45,654 bases of DNA, from positions 1-45,654 of IMG/VR virus record IMGVR_UViG_3300009506_000059, one strand, 5' to 3'. How positions within the stretch are numbered: position 1 is the stretch's first letter; the number at the start of each line of letters is the position of its first letter. Under the pieces are notes generated by a model. It had not been told where the DNA came from, did not search any database, and saw only the letters and a program-made list of their open reading frames with translations. Both the position numbers and the translations under genes were made by a program. This stretch comes from a virus. Shown one piece after another: positions 8,269 to 42,855 of the stretch.

Positions 8269-8877
8269 ATGGCGATTACTACTATTGAAAGAATTTTTAC
8301 AAGCACCAGCCCCGGCGGGAGACCGTGGATAGTACCGTTCTATTCCGCTGACGCCACCGGCAAGGAGATTATCAAGGCTGGAGTTGCTAATGACAGGCAC
8401 TATATAAAGGCCGTCCACGTGACCTACACACCCGGGACCACCCACAAATACTGGACCCTGATAGACGATAACGAGGCCGAGATATTCCCCCGTATAGAGT
8501 CCGTCGATTACAGTCCTCATTACGACCACAGGTTCATCGTTGCGGTGCCCTGTGAGACCGGTCATGGGATACGGATAGTCTCGGAGCTTACCGGCGATAT
8601 ATGCGGTTTCATAGAAGGTTTTTCGAGGACCGAGCAGCCTGCCTACAGACAAGACCTCGACCTTGCCGGAAGTGCATCCACATCGGCGAGCGTGAGCTCT
8701 TCACTGAGTGCATCGGTGAGCCTCAGCCCGTCGGCCTCGCCCTCTGTGAGTGCGTCATTGAGTCCTTCTATAAGTGCGAGTCCTTCGATAAGCGGTTCGG
8801 TCTCACTGAGTCCTTCAGCCTCTATAAGTTCCTCGCCGAGCGCATCTATAAGCGCCTCGCCGAGTGTGAGTGGATAA
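8269..8877 (+). CDS. virion-type protein with serine-rich-repeat tail (SRR-1)
   Basis: 202 residues. The first ~130 look like a compact beta-sandwich domain (MAITTIERIFTSTSPGGRPW at the start). From about residue 132 to the end the protein alternates Ser with Ala, Val, Ile, Leu or Pro in SPSASISxS-like units. The same repeat recurs in the proteins at 21846 and 25621, so I infer a shared surface role such as decoration or adhesion. Ser-alternating repeats in bacterial SRR adhesins are O-glycosylated, and this phage carries its own glycosyltransferases. Its stop overlaps the next start (TAATG). Confidence 0.65.
   Translation: MAITTIERIFTSTSPGGRPWIVPFYSADATGKEIIKAGVANDRHYIKAVHVTYTPGTTHKYWTLIDDNEAEIFPRIESVDYSPHYDHRFIVAVPCETGHGIRIVSELTGDICGFIEGFSRTEQPAYRQDLDLAGSASTSASVSSSLSASVSLSPSASPSVSASLSPSISASPSISGSVSLSPSASISSSPSASISASPSVSG
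8667..8874 (+). repeat. serine-rich (SX)n coding repeat, copy 1
   Basis: About 70 codons in which nearly every second residue is Ser and Pro recurs regularly. Both TCN and AGY serine codons are used in mixture, so the DNA is not a clean tandem repeat. The peptide pattern rather than the nucleotide pattern looks conserved. Confidence 0.85.
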
Positions 8878-9182
8878 TGAATAGAAGAATATTTCTAAAA
8901 CTTGTTGGCGCCGCTGTTTTAGCACCGTCACTGCCTTGCGACGAAAAACAGAGCAGGCACAAGACCTTTGTGTACAGGGGACAGGAGTTTATTGCGACCC
9001 ATCGCCCCGAAATTCCGGCAATACAGCTTTATATGAAAGCAGTTATAAACGGCGAAACATACTGTAACGCCTTTTGGATAGAGCCGGAACATTATGAGAA
9101 GTGCCGCAATATGTACTGCGATGTGCTTTTGAAGTCTCTTGAAAGAAAAAAACGTGAACTTAGCGGAAATAGCACAATCTAA
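8877..9182 (+). CDS. small exported protein with Tat-like or lipoprotein-like signal
   Basis: 101 residues starting MNRRIFLKLVGAAVLAPSLPC. NRRIFLK matches the twin-arginine consensus (RRxFLK), and the hydrophobic stretch ends at a Cys. The residue before it is Pro, so the lipobox is poor. The remainder is globular with further cysteines (ETYCNAF, EKCRNMYCD). The gene starts on the stop of SRR-1 (TAATG) and overlaps TerL. Phage-encoded exported proteins can act in exclusion or lysis; the function here is unknown. Confidence 0.5.
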   Translation: MNRRIFLKLVGAAVLAPSLPCDEKQSRHKTFVYRGQEFIATHRPEIPAIQLYMKAVINGETYCNAFWIEPEHYEKCRNMYCDVLLKSLERKKRELSGNSTI

Positions 9183-11305: not shown

Positions 11306-12946
11306 ATGGACTACGAAGAACAAAAAAGAGCCGAAGGGCTGATAAGACTCTACGATAACGCTTTCCGCCTGAACAGCAATTTTCGTTCTCTCTGGCAGGA
11401 GACAGCCGATTTAATGTTTCCCCGCGAGAGCAATATCACTACGAGTCTGGTGCCCGGCTCAAGAAAGACCGAGGGCATCTACGATACTACGGCGATAGTT
11501 GACTCGAAGGAAATGGGCGACGGCATGCTGAGCGCCCTTATTCCTACAGGCGAGTATTTTTACCAGTGGAACGTCTCCAAAGACAATCCCTACGGCAATA
11601 ATGAAAAGTATATCGACTGGTGTGCAAGGGCTACGGACAAGCAGCACAGGGCTTTATTCGCCTCGAATTTCATGCAGCAGTCGGGCGAGACCATGAGGTC
11701 TCTGGTGACTTTCGGGACGGGCTGTCAGTATTCCGAATGGTCTTACAAAAAATTAGGCCTGAACTTCAGGGACTACGATATAGCCATGTACGTCGTCTGG
11801 CTGGACGAGGATGGCAATATCGAGGGTGTGGGGGTAAAGTTCCCCTATACCGCGAGACAGGCTTACGGACGGTGGGGCGAAAACGCCGGTAAACAGGTAG
11901 CCAAAAACGCGCAGGACAAGGACAAGCAGGAAGAGATATTCCAGTTCATTCACTTAGTCAGACCCCGAAGGAAAAGAAATATCCTAATGAGAGACGTTCT
12001 TAACTATCCTTTCGAGTCTGTTTATATAAACGAAAAAGAGAAGAAGATAGTCGATGAAGGAGGTTATATCGATTTTCCATATCATATCCCGAGATGGATG
12101 GTCACTTCAGGTGAGGTAATGGGCCGCGGCGTGGGAACCGAGATACTCCCGCAGGTAAAAGTCCTGAACCGCGCAATGCAGGACTGGATTGAGGTAAGTA
12201 ATAAGAGGGTCAATCCCCCATTAGAGGCATTGGAAAGTTTCGATGGCGAGGTGAATACAACGCCCGGCTGGGTCAATGTAGTTCAGGAAATACCTTCCAT
12301 CAAGGCGATAGAGAACGCAGCCTTGGGTTCTCAGGTAGCCGGCGAGAAGGAAATCCGGATGTTAAGGGAATTTATAGATAAGGCGTTCTTCAAGGACGTT
12401 TTTTCTCCCATCTCTGATTTGACGGGTGACCGAAGGACTACCTTAGAAATCCGCCAGAGGATACGCGAGGGACTAAAACGTGTAGGTCAGCCCGTGGGAA
12501 GGGTGCAGTCGGAATGGTTCGAGCCTCTCCTTCAGAGGACTCTGAGACTCCTTATCCAGCACGGCGAAATACCCGCTCCTCCGCCCGGCTTGGAGCTTCT
12601 CGAAATAGAGTATATGGGACTGATGAGTAATACTCTTTCATCCGGCCAGACCACGGCGTTTCAGCAGTGGGTGGCGATAGGCCAGCAGATGGAAGAGACT
12701 TACCCCGGAACTATAGATAATGTAAACGTGGACGGCGGGTACAGGAGACTCGGACGGACTCTGGGAGTCCACGCCGATGATATGAACACACCCGAACAGC
12801 GTGCCGAGATACGCAGACAGAGACTCGAGGAGTATCAGAAGAAACAGATGGCCGAACTCGCACAGATGGCCGCTCAGGGCTACTCCCAGACCACCGGCGC
12901 TCCCGAGCCGGGCAGTGCTGCCGGACAGATTATGGGGTCACAATGA
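11306..12946 (+). CDS. head-to-tail connecting (portal) protein
   Basis: 546 residues, typical for the T7 gp8-like connector family. The start (KRAEGLIRLYDNAFRLNSNF, then LWQETADLMFPRES) and the DSKEMGDGMLSALIPTGEYF region are characteristic. A C-terminal ISDLTGDRRTTLEIRQRIRE segment precedes a Gln/Met-rich tail. It forms the dodecameric ring through which DNA enters and leaves the head. The flanking genes (TerL, Bbp19-like, scaffold, capsid) fit. Confidence 0.85.
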   Translation: MDYEEQKRAEGLIRLYDNAFRLNSNFRSLWQETADLMFPRESNITTSLVPGSRKTEGIYDTTAIVDSKEMGDGMLSALIPTGEYFYQWNVSKDNPYGNNEKYIDWCARATDKQHRALFASNFMQQSGETMRSLVTFGTGCQYSEWSYKKLGLNFRDYDIAMYVVWLDEDGNIEGVGVKFPYTARQAYGRWGENAGKQVAKNAQDKDKQEEIFQFIHLVRPRRKRNILMRDVLNYPFESVYINEKEKKIVDEGGYIDFPYHIPRWMVTSGEVMGRGVGTEILPQVKVLNRAMQDWIEVSNKRVNPPLEALESFDGEVNTTPGWVNVVQEIPSIKAIENAALGSQVAGEKEIRMLREFIDKAFFKDVFSPISDLTGDRRTTLEIRQRIREGLKRVGQPVGRVQSEWFEPLLQRTLRLLIQHGEIPAPPPGLELLEIEYMGLMSNTLSSGQTTAFQQWVAIGQQMEETYPGTIDNVNVDGGYRRLGRTLGVHADDMNTPEQRAEIRRQRLEEYQKKQMAELAQMAAQGYSQTTGAPEPGSAAGQIMGSQ

Positions 12947-13077
12947 TAGTCAAAGTAAAGGAAAAAGGAAAAGTAAGGTACAGGGTAGTCACCCACCAGA
13001 CCCATCGTAATATGGGCACTTACAATACGAGGGCGGGCGCTAAGAAGAGGCTCGGCCAGATGAAGAAATACAGATGA
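12943..13077 (+). CDS. 44-residue basic phage protein
   Basis: It starts at ATGA on the portal stop. The product reads THQTHRNMGTYNTRAGAKKR, then LGQMKKY, a pattern seen in small phage proteins (RxxGTYxTxxxAxKRLxQ) encoded near portal genes. It overlaps the next gene (ATGA). Function unknown. Confidence 0.6.
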   Translation: MIVKVKEKGKVRYRVVTHQTHRNMGTYNTRAGAKKRLGQMKKYR

Positions 13078-13298
13078 TAGAACGTGACTATAAGGAAACA
13101 TTCGCTCCCCCGGCGGGACTAAGGGTACTCGACGACTTAAAGAAGTCCACCCGCGCAATGGTTGCTAATGTCCCTACAGACAACAACCCGTTACTAATGG
13201 CCTTTCGTGAAGGCCAGAGAAGTGTAATGATACACATATATCACAAACTGAATAAGGATTTAAGTAAACCCAGACAGGAAAGGGCAATAAATGACTAA
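13074..13298 (+). CDS. Bbp19-like protein
   Basis: 74 residues with FAPPAGLRVLDDL near residue 10 and FREGQRSVMIHIYHKL near the end. That matches the Bbp19 pattern of a small protein encoded between portal and scaffold in Bordetella phage BPP-1-type podoviruses. The molecular role is not established. It starts at an ATGA overlap. Confidence 0.75.
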   Translation: MIERDYKETFAPPAGLRVLDDLKKSTRAMVANVPTDNNPLLMAFREGQRSVMIHIYHKLNKDLSKPRQERAIND

Positions 13299-13581
13299 AC
13301 AAAGTGGGCAGGCCGAAGCAGCTCCACAAGAGGACAAGATTGAGCTGCAAATAATGGAAATGATGGTAGAGGCATTAACTAAAAATTCCGAGATACAGCA
13401 GAAGATACTGGAAAGACTGGAAACTTCCGTAACGGTCTCGGGCAAACTGACTCAGCCTCCGAAGACCGACAAGGAAAAGGAGATTGACAAAATCAACAGG
13501 GAGCGTCTCGCCAGGTTCAGGGACGACAAGATAAGACTTCAGGAAGAGGCTCTCGCTGAGCAGAAGAGGAGGGAGGGATAA
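13291..13581 (+). CDS. coiled-coil hypothetical protein
   Basis: 96 residues, mostly helical and highly charged (KNSEIQQKILERLETS, then KEIDKINRERLARFRDDK). It overlaps the Bbp19-like gene and ends one base into the scaffold ATG. It could be a small scaffold partner or head-assembly factor; no domain is recognised. Confidence 0.6.
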   Translation: MTKQSGQAEAAPQEDKIELQIMEMMVEALTKNSEIQQKILERLETSVTVSGKLTQPPKTDKEKEIDKINRERLARFRDDKIRLQEEALAEQKRREG

Positions 13582-14426
13582 TGTCTGACGAAGAAAACAT
13601 TGATTCAAACGAATCTCAGGAAACTCCCGCCGCTCTGGTAAATGCCGACGGCTCGTTCGCCGAGAACTGGAAAGAGAGTCTTCCCGAGGACATACGTCAC
13701 GAGAAGATACTTGATAACCTCGGCGACTTTCACGGTACGATGAAGCAGTTAGTCCACGCCCAGAGGATGATAGGCAAGAATAAGGTAGTCATTCCCGACG
13801 ACAAATCGCCGGACAGTGACTGGGATGTTTTTTACAACGCCATCGGACGACCGAAGACTGTAGGTGACTATAAGTTTGTTAAGGACGAGAACCTTCCCGA
13901 AGAGCTTTATGACGATGGTATGATAAGCAGGTTTCTCGAAGGTGCTCATAAGGTGGGTTTCACCCAGAAGCAAATGGACTATCTAAATCAGTTCGAGAAC
14001 GAACGTATAAAAATGGCGCAGGAAGCTTATCAGAACCAGAAGATTCAGGACAAGGCCGAGGCCGAGCGTGCGGTAAAGGCTTTATGGGGTGCCGCTTATC
14101 CCGAAATGGACCATCTTGCGAACCTGTTCGTTAATGAGACCACCGAGGAGGGTGCGGACAGGGACTCTATCCTTGATATAATAGGCAACAACCCTGTCAT
14201 TGCCAACTGGTGCGCCCAGAACGCCAAAAAATACATTGCGGAACACAAGGCTGTTATAGGCCAGATGACTACTCCAACCCCGAAAGAAGCGATGGCCGAG
14301 ATAGCGGACTTGCAGAATACCGAAGGATATATGACGGGCGAACTTTATAATAAGAACCCCGCGAAACATAACCAAATTAAAGCAAGAATACAAGAATTGT
14401 ATGAAATAGCCAATAAAGGCAGCTGA
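13581..14426 (+). CDS. scaffolding / capsid assembly protein
   Basis: 281 residues, acidic, with long helical segments, placed directly before the capsid gene. The N-terminal NADGSFAENWKESLPEDIRH and the LVHAQRMIGKNKVVIPDDK stretch are typical of T7-like and Bbp-like scaffold proteins. A C-terminal basic helical end (HNQIKARIQELYEIANKG) would bind capsid subunits. It is needed transiently to build the prohead. Confidence 0.75.
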   Translation: MSDEENIDSNESQETPAALVNADGSFAENWKESLPEDIRHEKILDNLGDFHGTMKQLVHAQRMIGKNKVVIPDDKSPDSDWDVFYNAIGRPKTVGDYKFVKDENLPEELYDDGMISRFLEGAHKVGFTQKQMDYLNQFENERIKMAQEAYQNQKIQDKAEAERAVKALWGAAYPEMDHLANLFVNETTEEGADRDSILDIIGNNPVIANWCAQNAKKYIAEHKAVIGQMTTPTPKEAMAEIADLQNTEGYMTGELYNKNPAKHNQIKARIQELYEIANKGS

Positions 14427-16291: not shown

Positions 16292-16305
16292 TCTTGGAGT
16301 TAATT

Positions 16306-17091
16306 ATGGCTTCACCGAGTACAGAAACAGATGTAATAAACCTTGGATTCAGAAGAATAGGAAATACCGGCATTACTGTTGCTGAACTTGCTGCCGGAAC
16401 ATCGGTAAATGCTATACACGCCAATCTTCAATACGCACAGACCAGAGACGCTTTACAGAGGTCTCATGCGTGGCGGTTCAATAAGGCGAGAATAAAGCTC
16501 GCCTCCGCCTGGGCGACGGCAAAGGCATATACGACCGATATGTACGTTACGAACAATTCCGTCTGGTACAAGTGCGCAACCGCTCATACCTCGGGTACTC
16601 TGGACGACGAGCCGGGCGTCGGTGCCGTAGCTTCTACTTACTGGACGACTCTCACAACGGCTCAGGTAACTCCGGCCTTTGAATATACTTATCAGTTCGA
16701 CCTTCCATCTGATTACCTGTGCCGGAGATATACGTGGGAGGACAATACCGCCCAGAGGACTTTTTATTCTTATGACATGGAGGGAAGCAAGTACCTGACA
16801 GATGATGCTACTGTTAATCTGGTCTATTCAAAACAGGTAACTGACGTAACGTCTTTCGACGCGCTCTATATAGAGGTTTTGTACCTTACTCTGGCGAAGA
16901 AATTCGCTACTGCTATCGCTCAGGACGCCAAGCTCGAAGAGGGGATACGCAACGAGTTGAAACCCTTAATGAGCAAAGTTCGCGCACTCGACAAGCAGGA
17001 GCAGAATACGAAAGGCCGTTACGATTTATATACGCATAACGACGCGAGGAGGGGATATGACGGGCGAATACCATCTCAGATGGGTTCTTAG
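16306..17091 (+). CDS. tail tubular protein A (T7 gp11-like) with CBM-like insert
   Basis: 261 residues. The start is the ATG at 16306, preceded by TTGGAG. The frame core matches gp11-like gatekeepers: INLGFRRIGNTGITVAEL, ARDALQRSHAWRFNKAR-type helices (here TRDALQRSHAWRF) and a LTLAKKFATAIAQDAKL C-terminal helix. Residues ~68-115 form an inserted module, AWATAKAYTTDMYVTNNS, then WYKCATAHTSGT...YW, with the spacing of small CBM5/12-like carbohydrate-binding modules. It joins portal to nozzle. Confidence 0.8.
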   Translation: MASPSTETDVINLGFRRIGNTGITVAELAAGTSVNAIHANLQYAQTRDALQRSHAWRFNKARIKLASAWATAKAYTTDMYVTNNSVWYKCATAHTSGTLDDEPGVGAVASTYWTTLTTAQVTPAFEYTYQFDLPSDYLCRRYTWEDNTAQRTFYSYDMEGSKYLTDDATVNLVYSKQVTDVTSFDALYIEVLYLTLAKKFATAIAQDAKLEEGIRNELKPLMSKVRALDKQEQNTKGRYDLYTHNDARRGYDGRIPSQMGS

Positions 17092-17102: not shown

Positions 17103-17891
17103 ATGTTAAGCATATTAATACCGTCCCGAATGGAAGTGTATTTACAGAGGACAATAGATGACATACTGGAAAAGGCTCACGGAGAAATCGAAATAATAGT
17201 CACCCTTGACGGTTACTGGCCGAAGCCGGCACTGAAAGAAGATAAGAGACTGACTATAGTTCACTTCGTTGAACCCATAGGTCAAAGACAGGCGGTGAAC
17301 CGAATGGCCGAGATTGCCAGGGGTGATTATTTAATGAAGCTCGACGCGCACTGCTGCCTGAGTCTCGGCTTCGACGTGATCCTGACTAAAAACGTAAATG
17401 ACAACTGGACTGTCGTACCGAGAAGATACGACCTCGATACCGAAAAGTGGGACAAGAAAGACCATACGAAATGCGATTATATGTACTTGACGGCGCTCGA
17501 TGCAGAGGGCGGGCCTCTAAGGGCCAAGAAGAGGAAGGGCAAAGAGACCTCTCCGACACCGCTCATAGACAGTGTAATGGCGTGTCAGGGTTCGTGTTTC
17601 GTAATGACGAGAGACCGGTTCTTCGAGTTGGGCGGTCTCGACGAGGCTCACGGTTCGTTCGGATGGCTCGGCTGTGAAATAGCCTGTAAGTCGTGGCTGT
17701 CCGGCGGAAAGCTGAAAGTGAATAAGGCCGCGTGGTACGCGCACTGGCAGAAGGGCACCAAGGGGCACAGGTTCCCCATTAAACGTGAAGATATAGACTT
17801 CGCAAGGGACTATGCAGTTGATTTATGGACGAATAACAGATGGCCGAAACAGGTAAAGAAATTCAGCTGGCTTATGAAGAAGTTCAGATGA
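17103..17891 (+). CDS. GT2-type glycosyltransferase with DxH motif
   Basis: 262 residues, GT-A fold pattern. It has an N-terminal nucleotide-binding strand (MLSILIPSRMEVYL), LDGYWP near residue 35, EPIGQRQAVN (57-66), a metal motif D81-A-H83, CQGSCFVMTRDRFFELGG (161-178), and GWLGCEIACKSWLSGG (187-202) before AHW. The DxH motif and WxGxE-type loop recall polypeptide O-glycosyltransferases (ppGalNAc-T) of family GT27 and related GT2 enzymes. Substrate is unknown. Its neighbours and the serine-rich virion proteins make protein O-glycosylation a testable inference. Confidence 0.75.
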   Translation: MLSILIPSRMEVYLQRTIDDILEKAHGEIEIIVTLDGYWPKPALKEDKRLTIVHFVEPIGQRQAVNRMAEIARGDYLMKLDAHCCLSLGFDVILTKNVNDNWTVVPRRYDLDTEKWDKKDHTKCDYMYLTALDAEGGPLRAKKRKGKETSPTPLIDSVMACQGSCFVMTRDRFFELGGLDEAHGSFGWLGCEIACKSWLSGGKLKVNKAAWYAHWQKGTKGHRFPIKREDIDFARDYAVDLWTNNRWPKQVKKFSWLMKKFR

Positions 17892-18424
17892 AAGTCTCCG
17901 ACGTTTACAGAGACCGCATGAAATACTCTCTCAGGAGAAAGACGAGGGAGTATATGGAAAAATATCTTTCTGAGCACAGGGTAAATCACAGGAACTTTCT
18001 CAAGATAAATCCCGCCAAGGCCATAGAGAACTTCTTCGAGTTCTTCAGAATATTCGTACAGAGAACCTTATATGAAAAGACCTTCGATGTCAGGCAGACC
18101 GCCTACTTTCAGTATTTAATAGTTCATCTCAATCCCGTATGGCTGATGCCTCTCACTCAAAGGGGAATTAATCATGCGATGCGCAAGGCACAAGACTCAA
18201 TCGACCTGATAAATGATATTAAACAAAACGGAATGAAAGACCCTCTCGATATGTGGTATTCCAAGGGCAAGTTAAAGATTATCAGGGGATACCGGCGCCT
18301 TGTGATACTTGAGGTCATGGGTGTAAGGGAAATGAAAGTAAGGGTCTGGCCGAACGAGGAAGTTTACTACCGTAATCAGACCGGAAGGATACCTACTAAA
18401 TGGCGGAAAAAATTTTCGGTATAG
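17888..18424 (+). CDS. ParB-like nuclease-fold protein
   Basis: 178 residues from the ATG that overlaps the glycosyltransferase stop (ATGA). A helical N-terminal half precedes a ParB/Srx-like core: SIDLINDIKQNGMKDPLDM followed by KIIRGYRRLVILEVMGV, where GYRR matches the GxRR-type phosphate-binding box. The fold supports nuclease, CTPase or kinase (SerK-like) chemistry in other proteins. The same domain is fused to a glycosyltransferase at 18920, so its role here is probably tied to glycan or substrate modification. Confidence 0.7.
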   Translation: MKVSDVYRDRMKYSLRRKTREYMEKYLSEHRVNHRNFLKINPAKAIENFFEFFRIFVQRTLYEKTFDVRQTAYFQYLIVHLNPVWLMPLTQRGINHAMRKAQDSIDLINDIKQNGMKDPLDMWYSKGKLKIIRGYRRLVILEVMGVREMKVRVWPNEEVYYRNQTGRIPTKWRKKFSV

Positions 18425-18930
18425 GTCTGGGAAAGACGGGTACGCATTCGCTCTGTGAGGCGATGTCGATACTCGGCTATAAGTCCAAGCACCATCCGCA
18501 CGGCAAAGACCTGAACAAGTCCATAGAGAAATACGATTTTCTTAACGACTTAATCATAGCATGGCAGTTCGAGTTTCTGGATGCGAACTATCCCGATTCG
18601 AGGTTTATAATGACCGTTCGTGAGATAGAGGACTGGCTCGAATCCTACCGCAATACGAAGACAGGTCACGGCTCGTTTTTCACAAGACAGTCGAGGTTCA
18701 TGCTGTATGGAAGGCAGGACTATGATGAGGATGTATTCAGGGACGCGTATCACAGGTATCATGAGAGAGTTTATAAATACTTTATAGGCAAAGACTTATT
18801 GGTAATGGATATAAACGCGGGTGACGGCTGGGAGCCTCTGTGTAAATACCTTGGCAGGGAAATACCGGACGTACCGTTTCCGCATTTAGGTTCATGGAAG
18901 ACCAGAAAGGAAAGAGAGAATGGACGTTAG
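18400..18930 (+). CDS. sulfotransferase-family protein
   Basis: 176 residues. KIFGIGLGKTGTHSLCEAMS (4-23) is the PAPS 5'-phosphosulfate-binding loop pattern of the Sulfotransfer_4-like family, and SRFIMTVREIEDWLESY fits the 3'-phosphate-binding strand and helix. GDGWEPLCKYLGREIPDVPF is the characteristic C-terminal segment. It would transfer sulfate from PAPS, possibly to glycans made by the adjacent glycosyltransferases. It overlaps both neighbours and so belongs to the same translational unit. Confidence 0.75.
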   Translation: MAEKIFGIGLGKTGTHSLCEAMSILGYKSKHHPHGKDLNKSIEKYDFLNDLIIAWQFEFLDANYPDSRFIMTVREIEDWLESYRNTKTGHGSFFTRQSRFMLYGRQDYDEDVFRDAYHRYHERVYKYFIGKDLLVMDINAGDGWEPLCKYLGREIPDVPFPHLGSWKTRKERENGR

Positions 18931-21040
18931 TGTAATTATACCGGCGAGGAATGAAGAATATCTCGCCAAGACTGTAGAGGACATATTGCTTAACAGCAGG
19001 GCGGACACGGAGGTCATAGCTGTATGCAACGGCTACTGGCCCAACCCGAGAGTGCCGGACGACCCGCGAGTAATACTGGTGCATACCACCGAACCTATAG
19101 GCCAGAGGCAGGCGGTAAACCTCGGAGCGAAACTGTCACGCGCCAAATACATCCTGAAGTGTGACGCTCATACCGCCTTCGATGAGGGATTCGATAAGAA
19201 GCTGATGGAGGACTGCGAGTACGACTGGACCGTCATACCGAGGATGTACAACCTCGATGTAGAAACATGGACGCCCAAGAAGAAAAAAGTCACCGACTAT
19301 ATGTGGATAAGGTCCATAGACGCTCCCGATAAACCGTTCCGGCACTGCTACTGGGACGCCAAGGCCCATAAAGAGTGTCCCGATGAGAGAAACGCACACA
19401 AGGAATGGGCGGCCAGAGAGGGTGACATTTCCGACGTGATGACCGGTCAGGGGGCATGTTTTTTCATGCACAGACAGAGGTTCTGGGACCTGGAAGGTAT
19501 GGACGAAAAGCACGGCCAGTGGGGCCAGATGGGTGTTGAGATAGCCTGTAAAGCATGGCTTTCGGGCGGAAGGCAGGTAGTAAATAAGAAGACGTGGTTC
19601 GCCCACTGGTTCAGGGGCGGGGGGGGCCCGGGCTTCCCCTGGCCCGCCTCGGGCCGCAAGCAGCAGAAGGCCAGAGAATACTCTCAGGACTTATGGCTGA
19701 ATAATAAGTGGCATTTACAGAAACGGCCTCTCTCGTGGCTGGTGAAGAAGTTCATGCCTTTGCCCGACTGGGACAGGTATCTCGAAACACATAACGGAGA
19801 ATTTATGGCTAAACCAAGGAAGATGAGTGAAGGTGAGACCCCTCAATATACTCAGGAGTTCTGTAAGAGGCAGCTCACCGAGGAAGAGCAGAACGTAAAG
19901 TATGAACCAGCCTACCTTAAAACGGCGAGAAAGAACGATTCGAGATACTTCATGCAGGGCAGGGAACTCAGTGTAACCGATATGTACGAGAACCGTATAA
20001 GGTACTGCCGGCCCGAGAAGCATTACGGAATAATGTGGCAGCAGAAGATAATTCCCCCATTCCTCGAAAGAGTCCTTAAGGGCGAGCAGTTCACGGACGA
20101 GCAGTTAAAAGAGTTCGAGTATTATACCTATCTCGTTTCAAGACTTAATCCTCAGAATAATATCGATGGTGAGCCCGACGATAAGGGTGTCAAGCACTGC
20201 ATAGGCAAGATGAGGGACTATATCAATCTCGCCAATGACATTAAGAAGAACGGGCTTAAGGCACCCATAGATTTGTTCTGTTACGATAAACCCTTCAGAA
20301 AAGAGGGCAAATGGTGGGACAAGGTCATTATAGTCAGGGGCAGCAGGAGAATAGCCATCCTCTATCATCTGGGGGTAAAGAAAGTCCCCGCCCGTATCTG
20401 GCGCGACGAGTGGCTCGCCAAGAGATTTATCCCCGACTCCCACTGGCCTGTGGACGATAACAGTATCCACGCCCACGCGGTAAGGCAGTTCGTTAAAATG
20501 GGGGCAAGGTCAACCGACAAATACTGGCGGCATAACTATACCCCGTGGTACGATAATCATATAGGAAAGTTTCAGAGGGGCTTTCATACCAAATACATTC
20601 TCGAACTGGGCGTTAAGACGGGCGTTTCACTTCTGTTATGGCACGATGCTTTCAGGGCGGCTGAGATTTACGGACTCGACAGGAGGCCCGATTTGTGCCT
20701 GCCCGAAATCAAAAAGAAAAAGAGAATACATCTGATTCAGGGCGACCAGACCGATACCGAGCTGCTCCATAAGATAGGCAAAGAGACGAAGTTTCACGTG
20801 ATTATAGATGACTGCTCTCACCGTCCCAGACATCAGAGGATAAGTTTCGACGTACTGTGGAACTATCTTTACCCGGGCGGTGTTTACGTTTTAGAGGATA
20901 TGCAGAGTAACTACCGCTCGAAGTACAGGCAGGACTCCATCGTCCCCCACGTGGCCTCGATGATAGAGGAAATATACGAGTCTCACAAGGTAAGGGAAAT
21001 ACAGTTTTATCCCAATATTATATTCATAACAAAGGCATGA
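18920..21040 (+). CDS. glycosyltransferase / ParB-like / methyltransferase fusion
   Basis: 706 residues in three parts. Residues 1 to ~270 are a GT2-type glycosyltransferase paralogous to the 17103 product (VSVIIPARNEEYL, EPIGQRQAVN, D82-A-H84, GQGACFFMHRQRFWDLEGMD, VEIACKAWLSGG). Residues ~310-515 are a ParB-like domain (YINLANDIKKNGLKAPIDL near 433, IIVRGSRRIAILYHLGV near 475). Residues ~550-706 are a class I SAM methyltransferase (YILELGVKTGVSLLLW near 558, IIDDCSHRPRHQ near 627, YPGGVYVLEDM), similar in pattern to Methyltransf_24 or macrocin O-methyltransferases. The fusion suggests sequential modification of one substrate. Confidence 0.75.
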   Translation: MDVSVIIPARNEEYLAKTVEDILLNSRADTEVIAVCNGYWPNPRVPDDPRVILVHTTEPIGQRQAVNLGAKLSRAKYILKCDAHTAFDEGFDKKLMEDCEYDWTVIPRMYNLDVETWTPKKKKVTDYMWIRSIDAPDKPFRHCYWDAKAHKECPDERNAHKEWAAREGDISDVMTGQGACFFMHRQRFWDLEGMDEKHGQWGQMGVEIACKAWLSGGRQVVNKKTWFAHWFRGGGGPGFPWPASGRKQQKAREYSQDLWLNNKWHLQKRPLSWLVKKFMPLPDWDRYLETHNGEFMAKPRKMSEGETPQYTQEFCKRQLTEEEQNVKYEPAYLKTARKNDSRYFMQGRELSVTDMYENRIRYCRPEKHYGIMWQQKIIPPFLERVLKGEQFTDEQLKEFEYYTYLVSRLNPQNNIDGEPDDKGVKHCIGKMRDYINLANDIKKNGLKAPIDLFCYDKPFRKEGKWWDKVIIVRGSRRIAILYHLGVKKVPARIWRDEWLAKRFIPDSHWPVDDNSIHAHAVRQFVKMGARSTDKYWRHNYTPWYDNHIGKFQRGFHTKYILELGVKTGVSLLLWHDAFRAAEIYGLDRRPDLCLPEIKKKKRIHLIQGDQTDTELLHKIGKETKFHVIIDDCSHRPRHQRISFDVLWNYLYPGGVYVLEDMQSNYRSKYRQDSIVPHVASMIEEIYESHKVREIQFYPNIIFITKA

Positions 21041-21594
21041 AAAAGATACTCTATTATACGGACAACAACATCGACCCGGAGATAAGGGATTTATGTATCA
21101 AGTATCTCTTAATGACGGAGATTCCCATTGTCTCGGTCTCTTTCAAGCCTATGGATTTGGGTACGAATATCTGTGTAGGCGAGCAGCCCCGCTGCGATGA
21201 AACCATTTTCTGGCAGATAACTACAGGTGTAATGGAATGTCTTAATGATATAGTCTATCTGGCGGAGCATGACGTACTGTACCATCCGAGCCACTTCAAT
21301 TTCATACCTTCCTTGAGAGGGACACTCTATTACAACGTCAATCGGTATAGGTGGCGGGTTAAAGATGACAGGAAGTGGTTCTGGAAGTCAAGTCATATAG
21401 CGGGAAGGTCTCAGATAGTGGCGTGGGGCGGTACGCTTTCCGACCATTACAACGGTATTCAGGCGAAGAAAAAGACCTTCAAATCCGAGTACCCCAACGT
21501 GGACATACGGCATGACAAAAACTTCACGAAAGGAAGAGAACCCGAGAAATTCGTTGAAGTAATACCCGGCTGGGAAAATCTATGGCAGGAATAA
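21037..21594 (+). CDS. glycosyltransferase-like protein
   Basis: 185 residues overlapping the upstream fusion gene (ATGA). YLAEHDVLYHPSHFNFIP (about 93-110) has an EHD in the place of a GT-A metal motif, LYYNVNRYRW follows, and VDIRHDKNFTKGREPEKF near the end resembles the RHGxNxT segment of small phage glycosyltransferase-like proteins. Function as an enzyme is inferred from pattern and position. Confidence 0.6.
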   Translation: MKKILYYTDNNIDPEIRDLCIKYLLMTEIPIVSVSFKPMDLGTNICVGEQPRCDETIFWQITTGVMECLNDIVYLAEHDVLYHPSHFNFIPSLRGTLYYNVNRYRWRVKDDRKWFWKSSHIAGRSQIVAWGGTLSDHYNGIQAKKKTFKSEYPNVDIRHDKNFTKGREPEKFVEVIPGWENLWQE

Positions 21595-21845
21595 AAAGAA
21601 TATTCGGCGGTAACTCAAAATCGGTAGTGGCCTTCGAGATAGAGTTTACTGACGGCTCGAAAGTCTCGGTCAATAAGGCACAATTGGTTGGGGGTCAGTT
21701 TAATACGGATGCTAAATTGAATAATTATACTAAAACACTTTTATCTAATAAAACGACCACTCCGGTTTATATACACAGGAACAGGAGTGGTACTTTTGCT
21801 ATCGCTTTAGGAGAGCCTCCGGCGGTTTGGCCGGAAGACGAGTAA
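21582..21845 (+). CDS. small hypothetical protein
   Basis: 87 residues, starting inside the preceding gene and ending one base before the ATG of SRR-2. A beta-rich small fold is likely (KSVVAFEIEFTDGSKVSVNK). It is somewhat AT-richer than its neighbours. Function unknown. Confidence 0.55.
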   Translation: MAGIKRIFGGNSKSVVAFEIEFTDGSKVSVNKAQLVGGQFNTDAKLNNYTKTLLSNKTTTPVYIHRNRSGTFAIALGEPPAVWPEDE

Positions 21846-23147
21846 ATGGCTACGATAATAAACGCAACCTGGGAATCGAACAGCGGCTTAACGGCTGCCG
21901 ACGGTTTCGACAATATAACGGACGCCGATGGTGATATGTCCGTAGCCGCAGGTGCGGCCCTCGGCGGTACGAATTACGGTGTTGCATATCTCGTTGATGA
22001 TACCAATGCGATGGTCGGTCGTTTTACGCAGGCCGATACCGGCACGGGCGATTTCAGGGTAAGGTTTTATTTTGACTGGAATTCGCTTACGATGGGCAAC
22101 TTCGAGGAATTTACATTAGGCGATTGGATCATAAATCCTGCTCCCTATTTTATATTCAAGCTTACATTCAGTAGAATTAGTGGAACAAGGTATTTGAATT
22201 TTACACCTTATTCTGATGCTGGTGGTTTAACGGCCGATTCTGTTGCAGTTTCAGATGCAGAACATTGGATAGAGATATATGTCCATCAGGCAGCGAATAG
22301 TTCATCCGCTGACGGTTCTTATGCCTGGTATATGGATGACTTGGGAACTGCTTTAGGTACATGGACAGGTGTTGATAACTATGACGTGTTTGCAGGAGGT
22401 GTCGAGTTCAGGCTCGGTGCGATGGCTGGAACGATAGACGCCGGCACTTCCGGCACTTTCTATATAGATGAGGTTAAGGCAAACGACGACGGCTCTGCGA
22501 TAGGGCCTATAGCTACGGGCAGTGTAAGTGCAAGTATTTCGGCGTCGCCGAGCCAGACCCCTTCGGCCTCGATTAGTTCTACACCCTCAGCGTCAATATC
22601 AAGTACACCATCGGCCTCGATTAGTGCCTCAGTATCCAGTACGCCGTCTGCTTCGCTAAGCTCTTCACCGAGTACCTCGCTTTCCGCGTCAATCAGCTCT
22701 ACACCCTCTGCTTCGCTTTCAGCGTCTATAAGCTCCACTCCTTCGGCAAGCTTGAGTGCCAGTATTTCATCTACGCCTTCAGCGTCAATATCACCGTCAA
22801 TATCTACGAGTCCGTCTGCGAGTATAAGCTCGTCACCATCTACATCTTTAAGCGCGAGCCTTTCACCTTCGATTAGTGCCTCGGTTTCGGCCACGGGCAG
22901 TATCAGCGCCTCTCTGTCGCCTTCGATAAGCGCCTCGCCTTCAGTTTCCGCTTCTATTAGTGCATCACCGTCGGCGTCTATTTCGGCCTCGCCAAGTTCT
23001 ACTCCTTCGGCTTCCCTGTCGGCCTCGATAAGTGCGAGTGTTTCCGCGTCACCTTCGGTATTAGTGAGTTTCGAGGGATATGTAAACTGGATAAGTGTTC
23101 AGGACGGCCTCGTTCAGGATGCCCAGTGGAGAATATTAAATGAGTAA
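21846..23147 (+). CDS. LamG-like virion protein with serine-rich repeat (SRR-2)
   Basis: 433 residues. Residues 1 to ~220 read as a concanavalin-A/LamG-like beta sandwich, ending [19 protein letters not shown], then [10 protein letters not shown]. Residues ~222-405 are a Ser-every-second-residue repeat with regular Pro (SxSxSPSAS). The last ~28 residues form a cap ([19 protein letters not shown]). The gene follows the glycosyltransferase cassette directly and overlaps the tail protein gene. It is a candidate adhesin or fibre and a candidate glycosylation substrate. Confidence 0.7.
22512..23060 (+). repeat. serine-rich (SX)n coding repeat, copy 2
   Basis: About 180 codons of Ser alternating with Ala, Ile, Leu, Val, Thr or Pro; the longest run of this pattern in the window. 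Serine codons TCN and AGY are mixed, and local units such as [12 protein letters not shown] recur. The composition also leaves a long open antisense frame, which I regard as a by-product. Confidence 0.85.
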
Positions 23148-25338
23148 TGTACCAGTTATAAGTTTTAACGCAGGTCAGTTGAGTCCTCAAATTGAGGAGA
23201 GGACTGATATAGCGAAATATTCGTCCGGCTGTCGTGATTTAGAGAACTTCATTCCGAGAGTTTACGGCTCAGCCGAGCAGAGGCCCGGAACGGCATTTAT
23301 AGGAACGGCCAAAAACTCGGGCCAGACCGTGAGAATGGAGGACTTTTCTTATTCTGATACCATTGCTTATATGTGCGAGTTTGGCGAGGAGTATATAAGG
23401 TTCTATTACAACAGCGGCCGTGTGGTTGGCTCTACATCTCCCACCGCGTGGGCCACCGCCACGGCGTATGTGATGGGACAGTTTACAACATATTCAGGCA
23501 CTATCTACAGGTGTCTTGTAGCTCATACATCATCGAGTGGGGCGGGTGACGGTGCGGGCGGTGAGCCTGATACCAATTATACCGAATGGGTAACGGCAGA
23601 CCTTGACTCCAACAGCGCTCCTATCTGCGAGACCCCAACTCCCTATCAGGAAGGCGATTTGCTCGAATTGCAGATAAGGCAGGTGGCCGATACTATGTGG
23701 ATTATCCACAAGAACTACCAGCCGAGGAAACTGACGAGAACGAGTACAACCACTTTTGATTTATCGAAGATAACGGTAAACGACGGGCCGTTCAAGAAAA
23801 GGAACGACCTCGCCAAAGGCGACAGCGTAACTCTTACTCCGAGCGCAACCACAGGAACGATTACTCTTACCGCTTCTTCGGCCACTTTTACAGCCAACCA
23901 TATAGGGGCTTTATTCAAGATAAAACAGCCGAGAGCGACTACCTACGTTTCGGGAACATCAACACATCCCGGAGCGAATGATGCCCTGACAAGTGCTATA
24001 AGTGTCAAGGGCGAGTTTTCCTTTAATACTCACGGCACATGGGACAAAGTAGTATCTTTGCAGAGAAACGTCAATTCCGAGGGCTGGGAGACCTACCGGA
24101 CGTGGATAAGTAAATCAGGCGCTTTAAGAAACGTCAGTTTTACGGACACCGAGGAAGAGAGTGGGGTACAATACAGGGCGTATTTAGGCACTTCCACCAG
24201 CGGTACTGTTTATTGTGATATTAACGTGCACGACTCCACTCAGGACGGTATCTGCCGCGTGACCGGCTTTACGAGCTCAACTGTGGTAACGGCGACCGTA
24301 TTGCAGACCTTCGCATCCACCAGCGCCTCTTACAGATGGTACGAGGGGGCATGGTCTGACGAGGCGGGCTGGCCGGGCGCTTTTACGTTCTTCGACGAAC
24401 GCGCCGTTTACGGCGGGACAGATAGTGAGCCTCAGAATATATGGTTCTCGGCATCGGGTGACTATGAGGACTTTGATGAAGGAATTTTCGACGACGACGC
24501 CTTCTGGCTTACCCTGGGTTCTGATAAGAGAAACGGCATCCGCTGGCTGTCGGGACTGAACCACCTGTGCGCGGGAACAAACGGCGGAGAGTGGATAGTA
24601 AGGGCGACCTCACTGGACGAGAAGATTACTCCCACCAACTATACGGCGAGACAGCAGACCTCCTACGGCTCTAAGAAAATACAACCTTTACAGGTGGGCG
24701 ATTCGGTTCTTTTCGTGGACTTTGTGGGCAGAAAGATAAGGGAATATACATTGTCCCAGACATCGCCGGAGGTCAAGTACGTCGCCCCCGACCTTACAGC
24801 ACTCGCCGAGGACATTACGGTAGGCGGGATAACCTCAATAGCGTTCCAGAAGAACCCCGACCTGATAGTATGGTGTACCCTCGCTACGGGCGGGTTGCTG
24901 TCGATGGTATATGAAAGAGAGCAGAACGTCATAGCATGGTCTAAGCATCCTTTAGGCGGAACGAGCGCATCCTGCGATTCCGTGGCGGTAATACCCGGAA
25001 CCAACGAGGACGAGGTATGGATATGCGTATCGAAGACGGTCAATAGTGCCACCGTAAGGCATATAGAGCAGTTACAGCCGAGGGTGAGCGTGGCTTACGA
25101 GGATTCGTGGTACGTTGACGACGGGCTGGGCTTCGACGGCGGTGCGGCGCAGACTATTACAGGTGCTACCAAGGCCAATCCCTGCGTGATTACAGTCGCC
25201 TCTCACGGCCTTAGTAACGGAGACCACGTTTACATTACAGGCGTGGGTGGTATGACCGACCTTAACGGCAACTATTATACAGTTGACGACGTTACGACCA
25301 ATACGTTTACTTTGAGAACTTATGAAAAATATACTTAA
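23140..25338 (+). CDS. tail/stabilisation protein, N-terminal part
   Basis: 732 residues. The start ([20 protein letters not shown], then [27 protein letters not shown]) is the hallmark of the large podovirus tail protein often called phage stabilisation protein. Residues ~103-148 carry a CBM5/12-like module ([25 protein letters not shown]). The end is an FCCH-like domain ([34 protein letters not shown]), cut off after LRT. The conserved C-terminal domain that normally follows is found on the 25621 gene instead, so this gene is truncated relative to its family. Confidence 0.7.
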
Positions 25339-25624
25339 AATAGGAATACTAATCGTGGGACAGTTACTTTCGATATTCTCAAAACCTAAACCGAAGTTCG
25401 TACCCAGCCACTTGAGACCGGGATACGAGAGTCCGTTCGCCAAGCCAATGACGAAAGAGCAGAAAGACAGGCTCCAGAGAGATGTCATATTATATTTGGG
25501 CACTCACCGCAAGACTATGAAGTACGAGAAGCAGGCGAGAAAACTAAAGGATTCAGGCGATAAGAGACCTTTTAAGAGTATAGTGGCCGACCTGTCGCTC
25601 GAAGATATGAGGAGTAAAAAATGA
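25322..25624 (+). CDS. small basic hypothetical protein in the split region
   Basis: 100 residues starting 17 bases before the end of the tail-protein gene. A hydrophobic N-terminal helix ([16 protein letters not shown]) could be a signal anchor. The rest is basic and helical ([20 protein letters not shown]). It lies exactly at the break in the tail protein and overlaps the next gene (ATGA). Function unknown. Confidence 0.55.
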
Positions 25625-27279
25625 CAGCTCCCGTATATCAGTCATTTACACAAACATCGAATGGCAGTAACTCAACGAGTATTACATTAACTAAGCCAAC
25701 AGGAACGGCAGCGGATGAGGATTTGTGTTTCGTTATTGTGACTGACGGCGACTGCGGCAGTGCAATTTCACCGCCAGATGCTAATTACACCCAGATACAG
25801 GGAACGAGAACTGCGGCTGTTTCCTGCTATGTTTTCAGGAGACGAGCAGCCAACCCGCCTAACGCAAGTCATGTTTTTACATGGACTAATTCCGAGCAGG
25901 CTTATGGTATATGTATTCGTATCAATGGTCAAAGCCTTACGTCCGCTATAAATGCAAGTGCCTTATCAACTGGCTTGTCTTCAACTCCAACCTGTCCTAC
26001 AGTTACTACTACAAAAGAAGATTGTTTAATATTAAGAATATTCGGTGCAGACGATGATGATATAACGTATGGTGCGGGCTATCCTTCCGGTCATACCGGA
26101 ATAACAGTTAATAAATCCACTTCGGGGACTGAAACGTGCAGCGGCAGTGCAGCATGGGTAAATAAGGCCAATCCCGGTGCAACGGGAACAGCAGCCTTTT
26201 CATTAACGGCCTCCGAAGACTGGATAGGCATAACGGTAGCCTATAATTCTCCCGAAGGCCCGAGTGCATCAATCAGTTCAAGTCCTTCGGCGTCTTTGTC
26301 GGTAAGTGCAAGTCCCTCCGCTTCATTATCTGCCTCGGGTTCGGTCAGCGCTTCCATTAGTTCTACACCATCAGCCTCAATAAGCTCAAGTCCCTCGACC
26401 AGCGTTTCGGCTTCAATAAGTTCTACGCCATCGACCTCTCCGTCTGCGAGCATATCGTCAAGCCCGAGTGCCTCGATAAGTTCAACACCGTCAACTTCAC
26501 CGAGCGCAAGTATCTCTTCGTCACCCTCGGCTTCAATATCTTCGACACCATCTACGAGCCTGTCAGCGTCGCCGTCCGCTTCACTGTCGGTGAGCGCCTC
26601 TCCGAGCGTATCGGAGACGGCCTCTGCCTCACCGTCAACCTCTCCATCTGCTTCGATTTCATCGAGTCCGAGCGCTTCGATAAGCTCAAGTCCTTCGGTG
26701 AGCGCCTCCGTATCGGCCTCACCGTCCATAGGCACAGGTGACTATATAAACAGTACCTCTTACGGCACTTATACGTCAGGCGGTACGATTCAGCAGGTAG
26801 AAGCGAGGTTCGAGAACCTTGACCATCTGGTAGGAGAGACGGTATCCATTCAGGGTACGGACGTAAATGACAGTACGACTAAATACACCAATCAGACCGT
26901 AACTGATACGGGCGTAGTCGATTTAGCTACGGCCTCGGCGAATAATCTCGTAAGACGTGCGGTGATAGGACTGCCCGTAACGCCGAAGTTAAGACCTATG
27001 AGGGTGGTATTTAACACGGGTGAGGGAACGAGTATGGGTTCGGTAATGAGAATATCCGAGGTTGTGGTCAGTGTTTATAATACAGGCGCACTTAAATACG
27101 GGCTTACAATGAGTGACTTAAAAGACGTTACCCTTCCGTCAACACCATATACCGGCGATGTGGTTATAACACCGGATACTGGTTTTGATGTGAATACCGA
27201 TTTATATTTATCAAGCGATTCGCCTTTACCATTAACCGTAAGAGCAATAATTCCAAGGATACACAAGACAGGAAGATGA
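25621..27279 (+). CDS. SRR-3: beta domain, serine-rich repeat, then C-terminal domain of the tail protein
   Basis: 552 residues in three parts. Residues 1 to ~210 are a Thr/Ser-rich beta-sandwich. Residues ~213-372 are the SPSAS-type serine repeat. Residues ~375-552 are the C-terminal domain typical of the stabilisation protein: [51 protein letters not shown] and [26 protein letters not shown] would complete the FCCH-like domain broken at the end of the 23140 protein. I infer that a cassette inserted into the ancestral gene and the C-terminal part is now carried by this hybrid. Confidence 0.7.
26260..26735 (+). repeat. serine-rich (SX)n coding repeat, copy 3
   Basis: About 158 codons of Ser alternating with small or hydrophobic residues and regular Pro, with SISSTPS and SISSSPS units alternating. 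It links the N-terminal beta domain to the relocated tail-protein C-terminus. Mixed serine codon families are used. Confidence 0.85.
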
Positions 27280-34684: not shown

Positions 34685-35317
34685 ATGGAAAAGTACCCAA
34701 AGATAAATACGGTATTCAAACGTGATATGTTAAACAAGGGACGCATTATCGAAGAGTGTTATGCACAACCGGAATTTGAATATCTCAAGGACAATAAGTG
34801 GGTATTTACCGAAAAGGTTGATGGTACAAACATACGTATTGAATGGCATCGCGGCGTCAGCAGATTTTTTGGTGGCAGAACGGATAATGCTCAGATACCA
34901 GCCTTTTTGATTTCCCGTCTCGAAGAATTGTTTTCGGTGGATAAGCTTGATAGTGTCATCACATCGAAAGTTGACCATTTATGTCTTTATGGCGAAGGAT
35001 ACGGAGCAAGGATACAAAAAGGCGGCGGAAATTACAAATCTGATGGAGTGGACTTTGTATTGTTTGATGTTCTCGTTGATAGCTGGTGGCTCAAAAGAGA
35101 AGACGTTGTTGAAATAGCACATAGTCTGGGAATAGAAGTTGCACCTAAAGTAGGCACGGGAACACTTCTGGAAGGAATTGAATTAGTCAGACATGGTTTA
35201 AGGTCTTATTGGGGTGATTTTCTTGCAGAAGGAATAGTAATGAGACCAGAGGTGGAGCTAAAAACACGAGCAGGCCACAGAATAATAACAAAAATAAAGC
35301 ATAAAGATTTTTACTAA
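34685..35317 (+). CDS. RNA ligase (Rnl2-like nucleotidyltransferase)
   Basis: 210 residues, the size of a minimal catalytic domain without a C-terminal extension. TEKVDGTNIRIEW contains motif I with the adenylated lysine K44 (KVDG). VDFVLFDVLVD fits motif III/IIIa, EGIVMRPE motif IV, and ITKIKHKDF motif V (K203, K205). The enzyme should seal RNA ends with ATP through a lysyl-AMP intermediate. It is the first gene after the AT-rich control region and the nested-stem RNA. Its partner repair enzyme (Pnkp) is not visible. Confidence 0.8.
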   Translation: MEKYPKINTVFKRDMLNKGRIIEECYAQPEFEYLKDNKWVFTEKVDGTNIRIEWHRGVSRFFGGRTDNAQIPAFLISRLEELFSVDKLDSVITSKVDHLCLYGEGYGARIQKGGGNYKSDGVDFVLFDVLVDSWWLKREDVVEIAHSLGIEVAPKVGTGTLLEGIELVRHGLRSYWGDFLAEGIVMRPEVELKTRAGHRIITKIKHKDFY

Positions 35318-38760: not shown

Positions 38761-38918
38761 AAATAGTAATAGAACTTAGTCCCAAAGAACTTAAATTAGT
38801 ACGTCAAGCCCTCAAGGTATGGCGCGGTGACTTTTATGCTTCAGAAGGTTTTCAGCCTTCTCTTGTTTGGCAAAAAGAATTATCCGAGCTTATAGATAAA
38901 TTGGAAAAAGAAGAATGA
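38757..38918 (+). CDS. 53-residue helical protein
   Basis: It begins at an ATGA overlap with AAGGAGG upstream. The product (MKIVIELSPKELKLVRQALK, then KELSELIDKLEKEE) is helical and charged. It overlaps the endolysin gene by ATGA. Function unknown. Confidence 0.55.
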   Translation: MKIVIELSPKELKLVRQALKVWRGDFYASEGFQPSLVWQKELSELIDKLEKEE

Positions 38919-39301
38919 AACGAGCAATTAAAATATTCTGTGTAATTATACCACTTGCTATCGCACTTACGGTAACGATAGGCATGGGCATTGAGGCAGC
39001 TAAACAACAGGGCATGGAAGCCCGGCCTGTCGTTTATAAGGTCACGGCCTACTGCGTCTGTGAAAAATGCTGTGGCAAGTATGCAGATGGCATTACGGCC
39101 TCGGGCGCAAAGGCGGAAGGCAAGCTGATAGCAGCGCCGAAAGATATACCTTTTCACACTTGGATAAACGTACCCGGCTACGGCTGGGCAGAAGTTTTGG
39201 ATCGCGGCGGCTGTATCAAAGGCAGAAGATTGGATTTGCTGTTTCCAACTCATCAGGAAGCCCTTGAATGGGGCGTTCAATACTTAGAGGTAAGGATATG
39301 A
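38915..39301 (+). CDS. 3D-domain endolysin with N-terminal membrane segment
   Basis: 128 residues. A hydrophobic N-terminus (CVIIPLAIALTVTIGMGI, 9-26) acts as signal peptide or signal-anchor-release segment. The 3D (MltA-like) domain follows: VTAYCVCEKCCGKYADGITA (43-62), AAPKDIPFHTWINVPGYG, VLDRGGCI and RRLDLLFPTH. Its three aspartates are D58, D96 and D107. The family acts on peptidoglycan, in line with a lytic transglycosylase role. It is the best lysis enzyme candidate in the window. Confidence 0.75.
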   Translation: MKRAIKIFCVIIPLAIALTVTIGMGIEAAKQQGMEARPVVYKVTAYCVCEKCCGKYADGITASGAKAEGKLIAAPKDIPFHTWINVPGYGWAEVLDRGGCIKGRRLDLLFPTHQEALEWGVQYLEVRI

Positions 39302-41726: not shown

Positions 41727-42855
41727 CCCAAGCAGAACAGGAGAATGGAGCAAAATGTATAAAGGCGTCAGGGAATTACTGACCGAATACAAAAGCATCT
41801 GTGAAGGCCACGTCAATGACCATGAACTCAGAATTGCTAATGATGAGCGGAAAAAATACTGGCAGGATAAGGTCAAGGAAATACAAGCCCTGCTCGATGA
41901 ACCTGAAACTTTCCGCTCGGCAAGAGAAATATTCAAAAAGTATTTACCCGAAAACACAAAGGCCGAGGATGAATGCCCGACGCACGAAGGAATTATACAA
42001 AAATGCAAAAATAATCACCAATACATTGCTAATTCTCACGAATATCCTTGTCCAAGGTGTCAACTAATTGATGTGTATGGAGCATTAAGCGACATAAGAA
42101 CACTGGTAACCTCTTGTGTTTCACCTAATATTACAGGTGAATACTTGCAAACCTGCAAAGCCATACTGAAGCGTTCTTTAGACGTTGAATATGTAAGGCC
42201 GTCATGGTTTCAACATAGCTGGGAACAAGAAATATACGAACAGAAGAATTTGACTGATAGCCAAGAGCCTGACTGCCCGACGTGCGGCGGAACAAAGATA
42301 CAAAACTGTCCTGATACATTCGATACACCAAATCCCTGCCCCTACTGCCAGCCTAAATGCCCGACGTGCGGCGGAACAGAGGAAACTATGAAAACATTTA
42401 CTGATGATTTAAGTGGCGGCAAATATGGTGATAAGATTCCCTGCCCCAGATGCCAGCCTGCCGAGCCGGACAATGTTGAGTTTATAGAACGGATAAAAGA
42501 AAAGTGGAGAGATGTTCCAGAGGGTAAAGACAGCCGCTTGTGGATAGCATTGACTGATTTAATCATGGCACTCGACCGCCTCGAAGAGGCAGTGAAAGAA
42601 GGGGAGTATCAACGACAAAGAGCTTTTGACAAAAATATGCAACTCCAAGCCGAGACCAAGCGGGCGGATGAGACAGAAGCAAGAGGAAAAGCCCTTATTA
42701 ATGTAATACAAAGAGAAAACAGACGGCAGGCGGAGCAAATTCGCAGGCTGAAAGATTGGGCGGAGCATAAGGATAATTGCGGCTTATTTACTATGGAGAT
42801 TGAGGAAAAGAAATGTACTTGTGGCCTTGAGCAAGCTCTGAAGGAGGCTGAATGA
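41719..42855 (+). CDS. multi-zinc-knuckle helical protein
   Basis: 378 residues. The centre carries repeated CPTCGGT...CPYCQP and CPTCGGTEE...CPRCQP modules (about 186-250), preceded by a CPRCQ site near 112. Two 21-base identical DNA segments encode the CPTCGGT parts. A long helical region follows (ALDRLEEAVKEGEYQRQRAF). The C-terminus CTCGLEQALKEAE contains the AAGGAGG ribosome binding site for the next gene. Function unknown. Confidence 0.6.
   Translation: MDNPSRTGEWSKMYKGVRELLTEYKSICEGHVNDHELRIANDERKKYWQDKVKEIQALLDEPETFRSAREIFKKYLPENTKAEDECPTHEGIIQKCKNNHQYIANSHEYPCPRCQLIDVYGALSDIRTLVTSCVSPNITGEYLQTCKAILKRSLDVEYVRPSWFQHSWEQEIYEQKNLTDSQEPDCPTCGGTKIQNCPDTFDTPNPCPYCQPKCPTCGGTEETMKTFTDDLSGGKYGDKIPCPRCQPAEPDNVEFIERIKEKWRDVPEGKDSRLWIALTDLIMALDRLEEAVKEGEYQRQRAFDKNMQLQAETKRADETEARGKALINVIQRENRRQAEQIRRLKDWAEHKDNCGLFTMEIEEKKCTCGLEQALKEAE

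Follow-up and report, generated by a model that had tools for sequence, protein, structure and literature searches.

Why would a phage carry glycosyltransferase (GT) genes inside its tail operon, next to proteins with long tracts of alternating serines? A preliminary description of this locus had proposed that the phage decorates its own tail or fiber proteins with glycans. Our analysis largely supports this reading as far as sequence-based evidence reaches, and we consider it probable, at roughly 80%, that the locus encodes a mucin-type protein O-glycosylation system. The window analyzed here is the entire record IMGVR_UViG_3300009506_000059 (45,654 nt). Its late region is podovirus-like, with genes for terminase, head-tail connector, major head protein, tail tubular A, tail nozzle protein, and internal virion proteins, and the connector and tail proteins have distant kin in Pelagibacter phage HTVC010P and Manatee Spring podoviruses. 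All open reading frames (ORFs) between positions 17103 and 27279 lie on one strand, most of them with overlaps of a few bases, and the enzyme genes together with SRR-2, one of three serine-rich-repeat (SRR) proteins, sit between the tail tubular A and tail nozzle protein genes. Scans for sigma-70 promoters and terminators gave results at chance level. The features are as follows.

8269 to 8877, + strand: SRR-1, small protein encoded ahead of the terminase gene, with a C-terminal (SX)n tract at about 8668 to 8874
16294 to 17091, + strand: tail tubular A-like protein, bordering the cassette upstream (phrog_394, tail, E = 1.5e-28)
17103 to 17891, + strand: GT-A glycosyltransferase 1 (GT 1), GT27-like, with D81-A-H83, E192, G201-G202, and H214 (PF00535, E = 6.7e-11; AlphaFold2/Foldseek; profile)
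17840 to 18424, + strand: stand-alone protein with a ParB/sulfiredoxin (Srx)-like domain at 18113 to 18364 (profile)
18400 to 18930, + strand: sulfotransferase (Sulfotransfer_4, PF17784, E = 3.9e-33)
18920 to 19753, + strand: GT-A glycosyltransferase 2 (GT 2), GT27-like, N-terminal domain of the 706-amino-acid ORF 18920 to 21040 (PF00535, E = 5.2e-11)
20129 to 20416, + strand: ParB/Srx-like domain fused to GT 2
20510 to 20929, + strand: class I SAM methyltransferase domain fused to GT 2 (PF13578, Methyltransf_24, E = 6.9e-7; phrog_21658, methyltransferase, E = 1.3e-21)
21037 to 21594, + strand: GT-A-like protein without a Pfam family, E77 and D79 being invariant (EHD motif); candidate transferase for a second sugar (AlphaFold2 and Foldseek)
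21846 to 23147, + strand: SRR-2, with an N-terminal domain, an (SX)n tract at about 22503 to 23096, and a short C-terminal tail
23140 to 25338, + strand: tail nozzle (tail tubular B-like) protein without its C-terminal domain (phrog_376 positions 7 to 579, E = 4.6e-152; alignment with intact homologs)
25621 to 27279, + strand: SRR-3, with an N-terminal domain, an (SX)n tract at about 26227 to 26766, and then a tail nozzle C-terminal domain at about 26776 to 27264 (phrog_376)

The serine-rich segments noted earlier in ORFs 8269, 21846, and 25621 proved to be tracts of 80, 198, and 180 residues (smoothed edges counted), with serine at 81 to 85% of alternate positions and mostly A, P, I, V, L, or S in between. 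The 58 random viral loci (519 kb) and the 80 loci selected for the same tail protein (981 kb) contained no ORF scoring like them. All six serine codons are in use, with a third-position entropy of about 1.9 to 2.0 bits, and neighboring serines switch between TCN and AGY codons in 24/35, 40/91, and 44/85 cases in the three tracts. Identical codons between repeat units matched the shuffled expectation, with no excess at any repeat lag tested, and TRF reported one minor array. An origin of the tracts as DNA microsatellites was rejected on the basis of codon use, the repeat-lag test, and TRF. The randomization of codons with serine held at alternate positions indicates selection on the protein sequence and shows that the tracts are maintained at the protein level. 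Across the collected loci, 183 distinct SX proteins carry many unrelated N-terminal domains, the biggest related cluster comprising nine, so the (SX)n tract behaves as a module set on many scaffolds. In a related contig (L001), the counterpart of SRR-2 has a LamG-like N terminus (by eye) and resembles SRR-2 at its C-terminal end. SRR-1 is overlapped in a different frame by an ORF at 8601 to 9182, in which MNRRIFLKLVGAAVLA resembles a Tat signal peptide.

Both GTs match the Pfam family Glycos_transf_2, carry the DxH motif, and are 47% identical to each other, in agreement with their previous assignment as DxH-type GT2 enzymes. The AlphaFold2 model of GT 1 (pLDDT of 94) gave the GT27 match that the preliminary description had proposed looking for: its best 50 Foldseek matches in the PDB were all polypeptide GalNAc-transferases (ppGalNAc-Ts), with a best E value of 1.7e-14 and a TMq of about 0.7 to 0.8. 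A profile of 60 GT relatives searched against PDB sequences likewise retrieved polypeptide GalNAc-transferases first (GalNAc-T1, E = 3.3e-12). In these 60 aligned sequences the DxH pair D81/H83, E192, G202, and H214 are invariant and G201 is nearly so, and in the profile alignment the DxH, Glu, GG, and His residues line up with conserved residues of GalNAc-T1/T2. Identity to GT27 is about 18 to 20%, which is weak at the sequence level, and both window GTs lack the ricin-type lectin domain found in ppGalNAc-Ts; donor and acceptor are therefore not readable from the GT sequence. The GT 1 ORF (262 amino acids) stops after the catalytic domain, and that of GT 2 runs on into the ParB-like and methyltransferase domains. 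Since GT 1 and GT 2 fall into different clades of the family tree, it is plausible that one would transfer the first sugar and the other the second. Viral relatives were retrieved with the family alignment, as the single GT 1 sequence retrieved none from viral contigs; among INPHARED phages there was no GT 1 relative, and GT 2 gave only weak partial matches.

The product of ORF 21037, which had been listed as a further GT-like protein, has no Pfam family. Its AlphaFold2 model (pLDDT of 93) matched KdsB (6e-5), AvpGT (1e-4), and heparosan synthase (6e-4) in Foldseek with a TMq of about 0.5; the predicted fold is similar to those of GT-A nucleotidyl- and glycosyltransferases, with modest TM-scores. 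The family is present in 65 of the 80 viral GT loci, and loci retrieved by this family alone contained the GT in 77 of 79 cases; the two are often fused in one ORF. Fusions of the GT to ParB-like and methyltransferase domains also occur.

The sulfotransferase and the methyltransferase of the cassette, the latter located C-terminally in the second GT ORF, were both recognized as described before. As to the proposal that the glycans may be further sulfated or methylated, relatives of the window methyltransferase occur in 24/80 GT loci; the sulfotransferase has no homolog in about 460 other loci, and on this ground sulfation was rejected as a feature of the system in general. Methyltransferases are frequent near the GT, with one family, whose representative is a Methyltransf_24 protein, present in 79 loci. 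Other neighbor genes in GT loci encode sugar dehydratase/epimerase, DegT aminotransferase, and more GTs and methyltransferases. One GT contig of 32.9 kb (L034), which has no (S/T)X protein, contains sulfotransferase-like and sugar-nucleotide dehydratase-like ORFs at 12554 to 14250 (by eye).

For the two domains described as ParB-like, a single-sequence Pfam search gave no significant match, and ParB_N was matched in 5 of 17 family members with E values up to 0.1. The family profile (A8) matched ParB (1.1e-4) and sulfiredoxin (8.6e-4) in the PDB, and its invariant G59, R61, and R62 correspond to the GxRR-type loop of the superfamily, in line with the original assignment. The domain is present in 18/80 GT loci and is an optional add-on to the system. 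In the ParB/Srx superfamily, phosphoryl transfer would be possible should the domain be catalytic. ParB-like domains also occur near DNA-base hypermodification systems, which counts toward reading the GTs and ParB-like domains as such a pathway. Phage GTs can indeed glycosylate modified DNA bases, according to work cited in PMC12619734. We nevertheless regard a DNA hypermodification pathway as extremely unlikely, since the genes sit in a tail operon and are linked to (S/T)X proteins, the ParB-like domain is found in just 18 of the 80 loci, and a search of the window with working controls found no thymidylate-synthase-family gene. A Tet/JBP search came back empty, but so did its own controls, and it carries no weight here.

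The link between the enzymes and the serine tracts was followed in both directions. GT homologs turned out not to be general in phages without serine repeats. An SX ORF was present in 59 of 80 viral loci retrieved by the GT alone and in 65 of 79 retrieved by the ORF 21037 family, and an (S/T)X protein (Ser/Thr allowed) in 41 of the 43 GT loci of at least 14 kb, counts that depend on pattern-based retrieval and on many GT loci being short fragments. None was found in the controls (0/58 random and 0/80 same-tail-protein loci, 0/138 in total), which were matched imperfectly for length and environment. All SX ORFs (88/88) lie on the GT strand. Within the lineage sharing the tail protein, an (S/T)X protein was present in 7/7 distinct GT contigs (two of them resolved from whole contigs) versus 0/83 loci without the GT. 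In one of the seven (L063), the SX gene lies beyond the retrieved flank and was seen in a second locus of the same contig (L238). One of the 80 tail-protein control loci (L326) has a GT at its edge, and beyond it the contig continues with the GT, a methyltransferase-like ORF, an ORF 21037 family gene, and then a mucin-like PSATPSVT protein.

Conversely, the GT was found in 14/21 contigs picked by their (SX)n tract (9/13 and 5/8 with two DNA patterns, the SX ORF being confirmed and one of the nine GT matches being marginal at E = 6e-10) versus 0/50 random contigs. Most (SX)n contigs without a GT are short fragments. Two longer ones (55 and 84 kb) share one SX protein, and one of them has only a marginal match to a GT2-type enzyme; a 50-kb contig without a GT has a Gly-rich tract. 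Fisher p-values on the pairing overstate certainty because related contigs are not independent; the comparison within the lineage and the spread of the tracts over many scaffolds are safer to rely on. The cassette, repeatedly paired with (S/T)X proteins in many unrelated viruses, points to a widespread system for sugar-coating virus particles.

This pairing also bears on the idea that the GTs modify host surface glycans, as in serotype conversion or superinfection exclusion, and that the (SX)n proteins are flexible linkers that lie nearby by chance. Serotype-converting phage GTs are well known (PMC12619734), and some GT loci also have sugar-nucleotide genes. Modification of host glycans does not, however, predict tight (S/T)X linkage on unrelated scaffolds in many lineages; moreover, the cassette genes lie inside the late structural operon and the folds match protein O-GalNAc transferases, not lipid-linked GTs, so that we give this idea little credence.

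A structural link to the virion came from the tail nozzle protein. ORF 23140 lacks the C-terminal domain, which is found instead at the end of SRR-3, behind the (SX)n tract (phrog_376 positions 556 to 708, E = 8.6e-14). In MW202898, a relative without the cassette, the tail nozzle protein is intact, and in L001 it is split as in the window. The SRR chain is thus placed on a tail structural domain. The putative (SX)n substrates look like virion proteins.

Fold, motif, and association are the grounds on which we infer the sugar, linkage, virion presence, and function of the system. One of the two GT27-like enzymes would, late in infection, put a sugar, probably HexNAc from a UDP donor, on Ser/Thr residues in the alternating tracts. 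The other one and the ORF 21037 family protein would add further sugars, the methyltransferase may cap or alter the glycan, and, in the window phage alone, the sulfotransferase may add sulfate. With virion proteins as substrates, one of them joined to the tail nozzle C-terminal domain, stiff, heavily glycosylated mucin-like stalks would form around the tail. The likely gain would be extended reach and adhesion, or a shield for the tail proteins.

In comparison with known systems, the cassette shares with eukaryotic mucin-type O-glycosylation (CAZy GT27) the GT-A fold, the DxH motif, the conserved Glu/GG/His residues, and acceptor regions rich in Ser/Thr/Pro/Ala, whereas the window enzymes are phage-encoded, would be cytoplasmic rather than Golgi-resident, and have no ricin-type lectin domain. 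Serine-repeat tracts are also the acceptors in SRR adhesin glycosylation (GtfA/GtfB, accessory Sec), for example of GspB, where glycosylation is intracellular and extra GTs add further sugars (PMC7948813). Here, by contrast, the putative first enzyme is GT27-like and the substrates are virion-like, not wall-anchored adhesins; no GtfA/GtfB or accessory Sec family was found by NCBIfam/Pfam in ten scanned window proteins, cassette included.

Phage protein glycosylation is known from a few actinobacteriophages. In mycobacteriophages (Che8 and others), phage GTs are implicated in glycosylating the phages' own capsid or tail proteins (Freeman et al. 2023, as cited in PMC12619734 and PMC11256854), and the linkage of GT genes to putative virion acceptor genes seen here is similar, as far as linkage alone can tell. 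The two citing papers describe no serine-repeat acceptors, whereas the putative acceptors here are dedicated repeat tracts, with the ORF 21037 family and the methyltransferase as recurring partners; this comparison covers acceptors and partner genes. The mycobacteriophage modifications, placed near the C termini of capsid and tail tube proteins with serine repeats unmentioned in these papers, also lend some support to the view that the enzymes glycosylate virion proteins outside the repeats and that the (SX)n tracts are spacers that bear no glycans and evolve under separate selection. Given that the GT and (S/T)X pairing is near-obligate and that the tracts recur on unrelated scaffolds together with the GT, this view appears very unlikely. 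We found no earlier description of mucin-like, GT27, or serine-rich-repeat phage systems in the open-access literature, and a sugar-coating system of this kind is apparently undescribed so far. With glycosylation of the tracts as the preferred reading, a recognizable, widespread enzyme-substrate pair with its own acceptor tract is now defined by sequence, which would make it possible to predict glycosylated virions among uncultured phages and opens the origin of mucin-type O-glycosylation to tests outside eukaryotes; with the cassette, bacteria could also be used to make mucin-like glycoproteins.

Relatives were also found in cells. A search of one genome per species yielded 61 loci, mostly in Patescibacteria metagenome-assembled genomes, with SX ORFs in 20 and the ORF 21037 family in 49; some lie on long contigs with chromosomal-looking genes around (by eye). 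Only 2 of 191 other sampled Patescibacteria genomes had the GT. In the GT tree, viral and genome sequences are intermixed, with well-supported branches requiring at least 14 switches, and the genes therefore appear to move between viruses and cells. Because of this mixing, and because the window GTs show no specific grouping with Patescibacteria, an assignment of the latter as host of the phage was rejected as unproven.

At somewhat less than even odds, and hence tentatively, phages and some gene-sharing Patescibacteria may run true mucin-type O-glycosylation, with a prokaryotic ppGalNAc-transferase branch, dedicated mucin-like acceptors, a new elaborating GT-A family, and sometimes ParB/Srx-like domains possibly phosphorylating glycan or serine. 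If so, mucin-like coats would be a general virion feature of uncultured phages.

Three Patescibacteria contigs of 240 to 744 kb (L455, L438, and L422) carry GT, ORF 21037 family, methyltransferase-like, and SX genes, and in L455 a TatC-like ORF follows the SX gene (by eye). Elsewhere in the window, we observed an RNA ligase (34685 to 35317, PF09414), an L-alanyl-D-glutamate peptidase-like protein that is possibly an endolysin (38915 to 39301), and a DUF5131/phrog_2045 protein weakly matching a radical SAM mobile pair protein (42852 to 43730).
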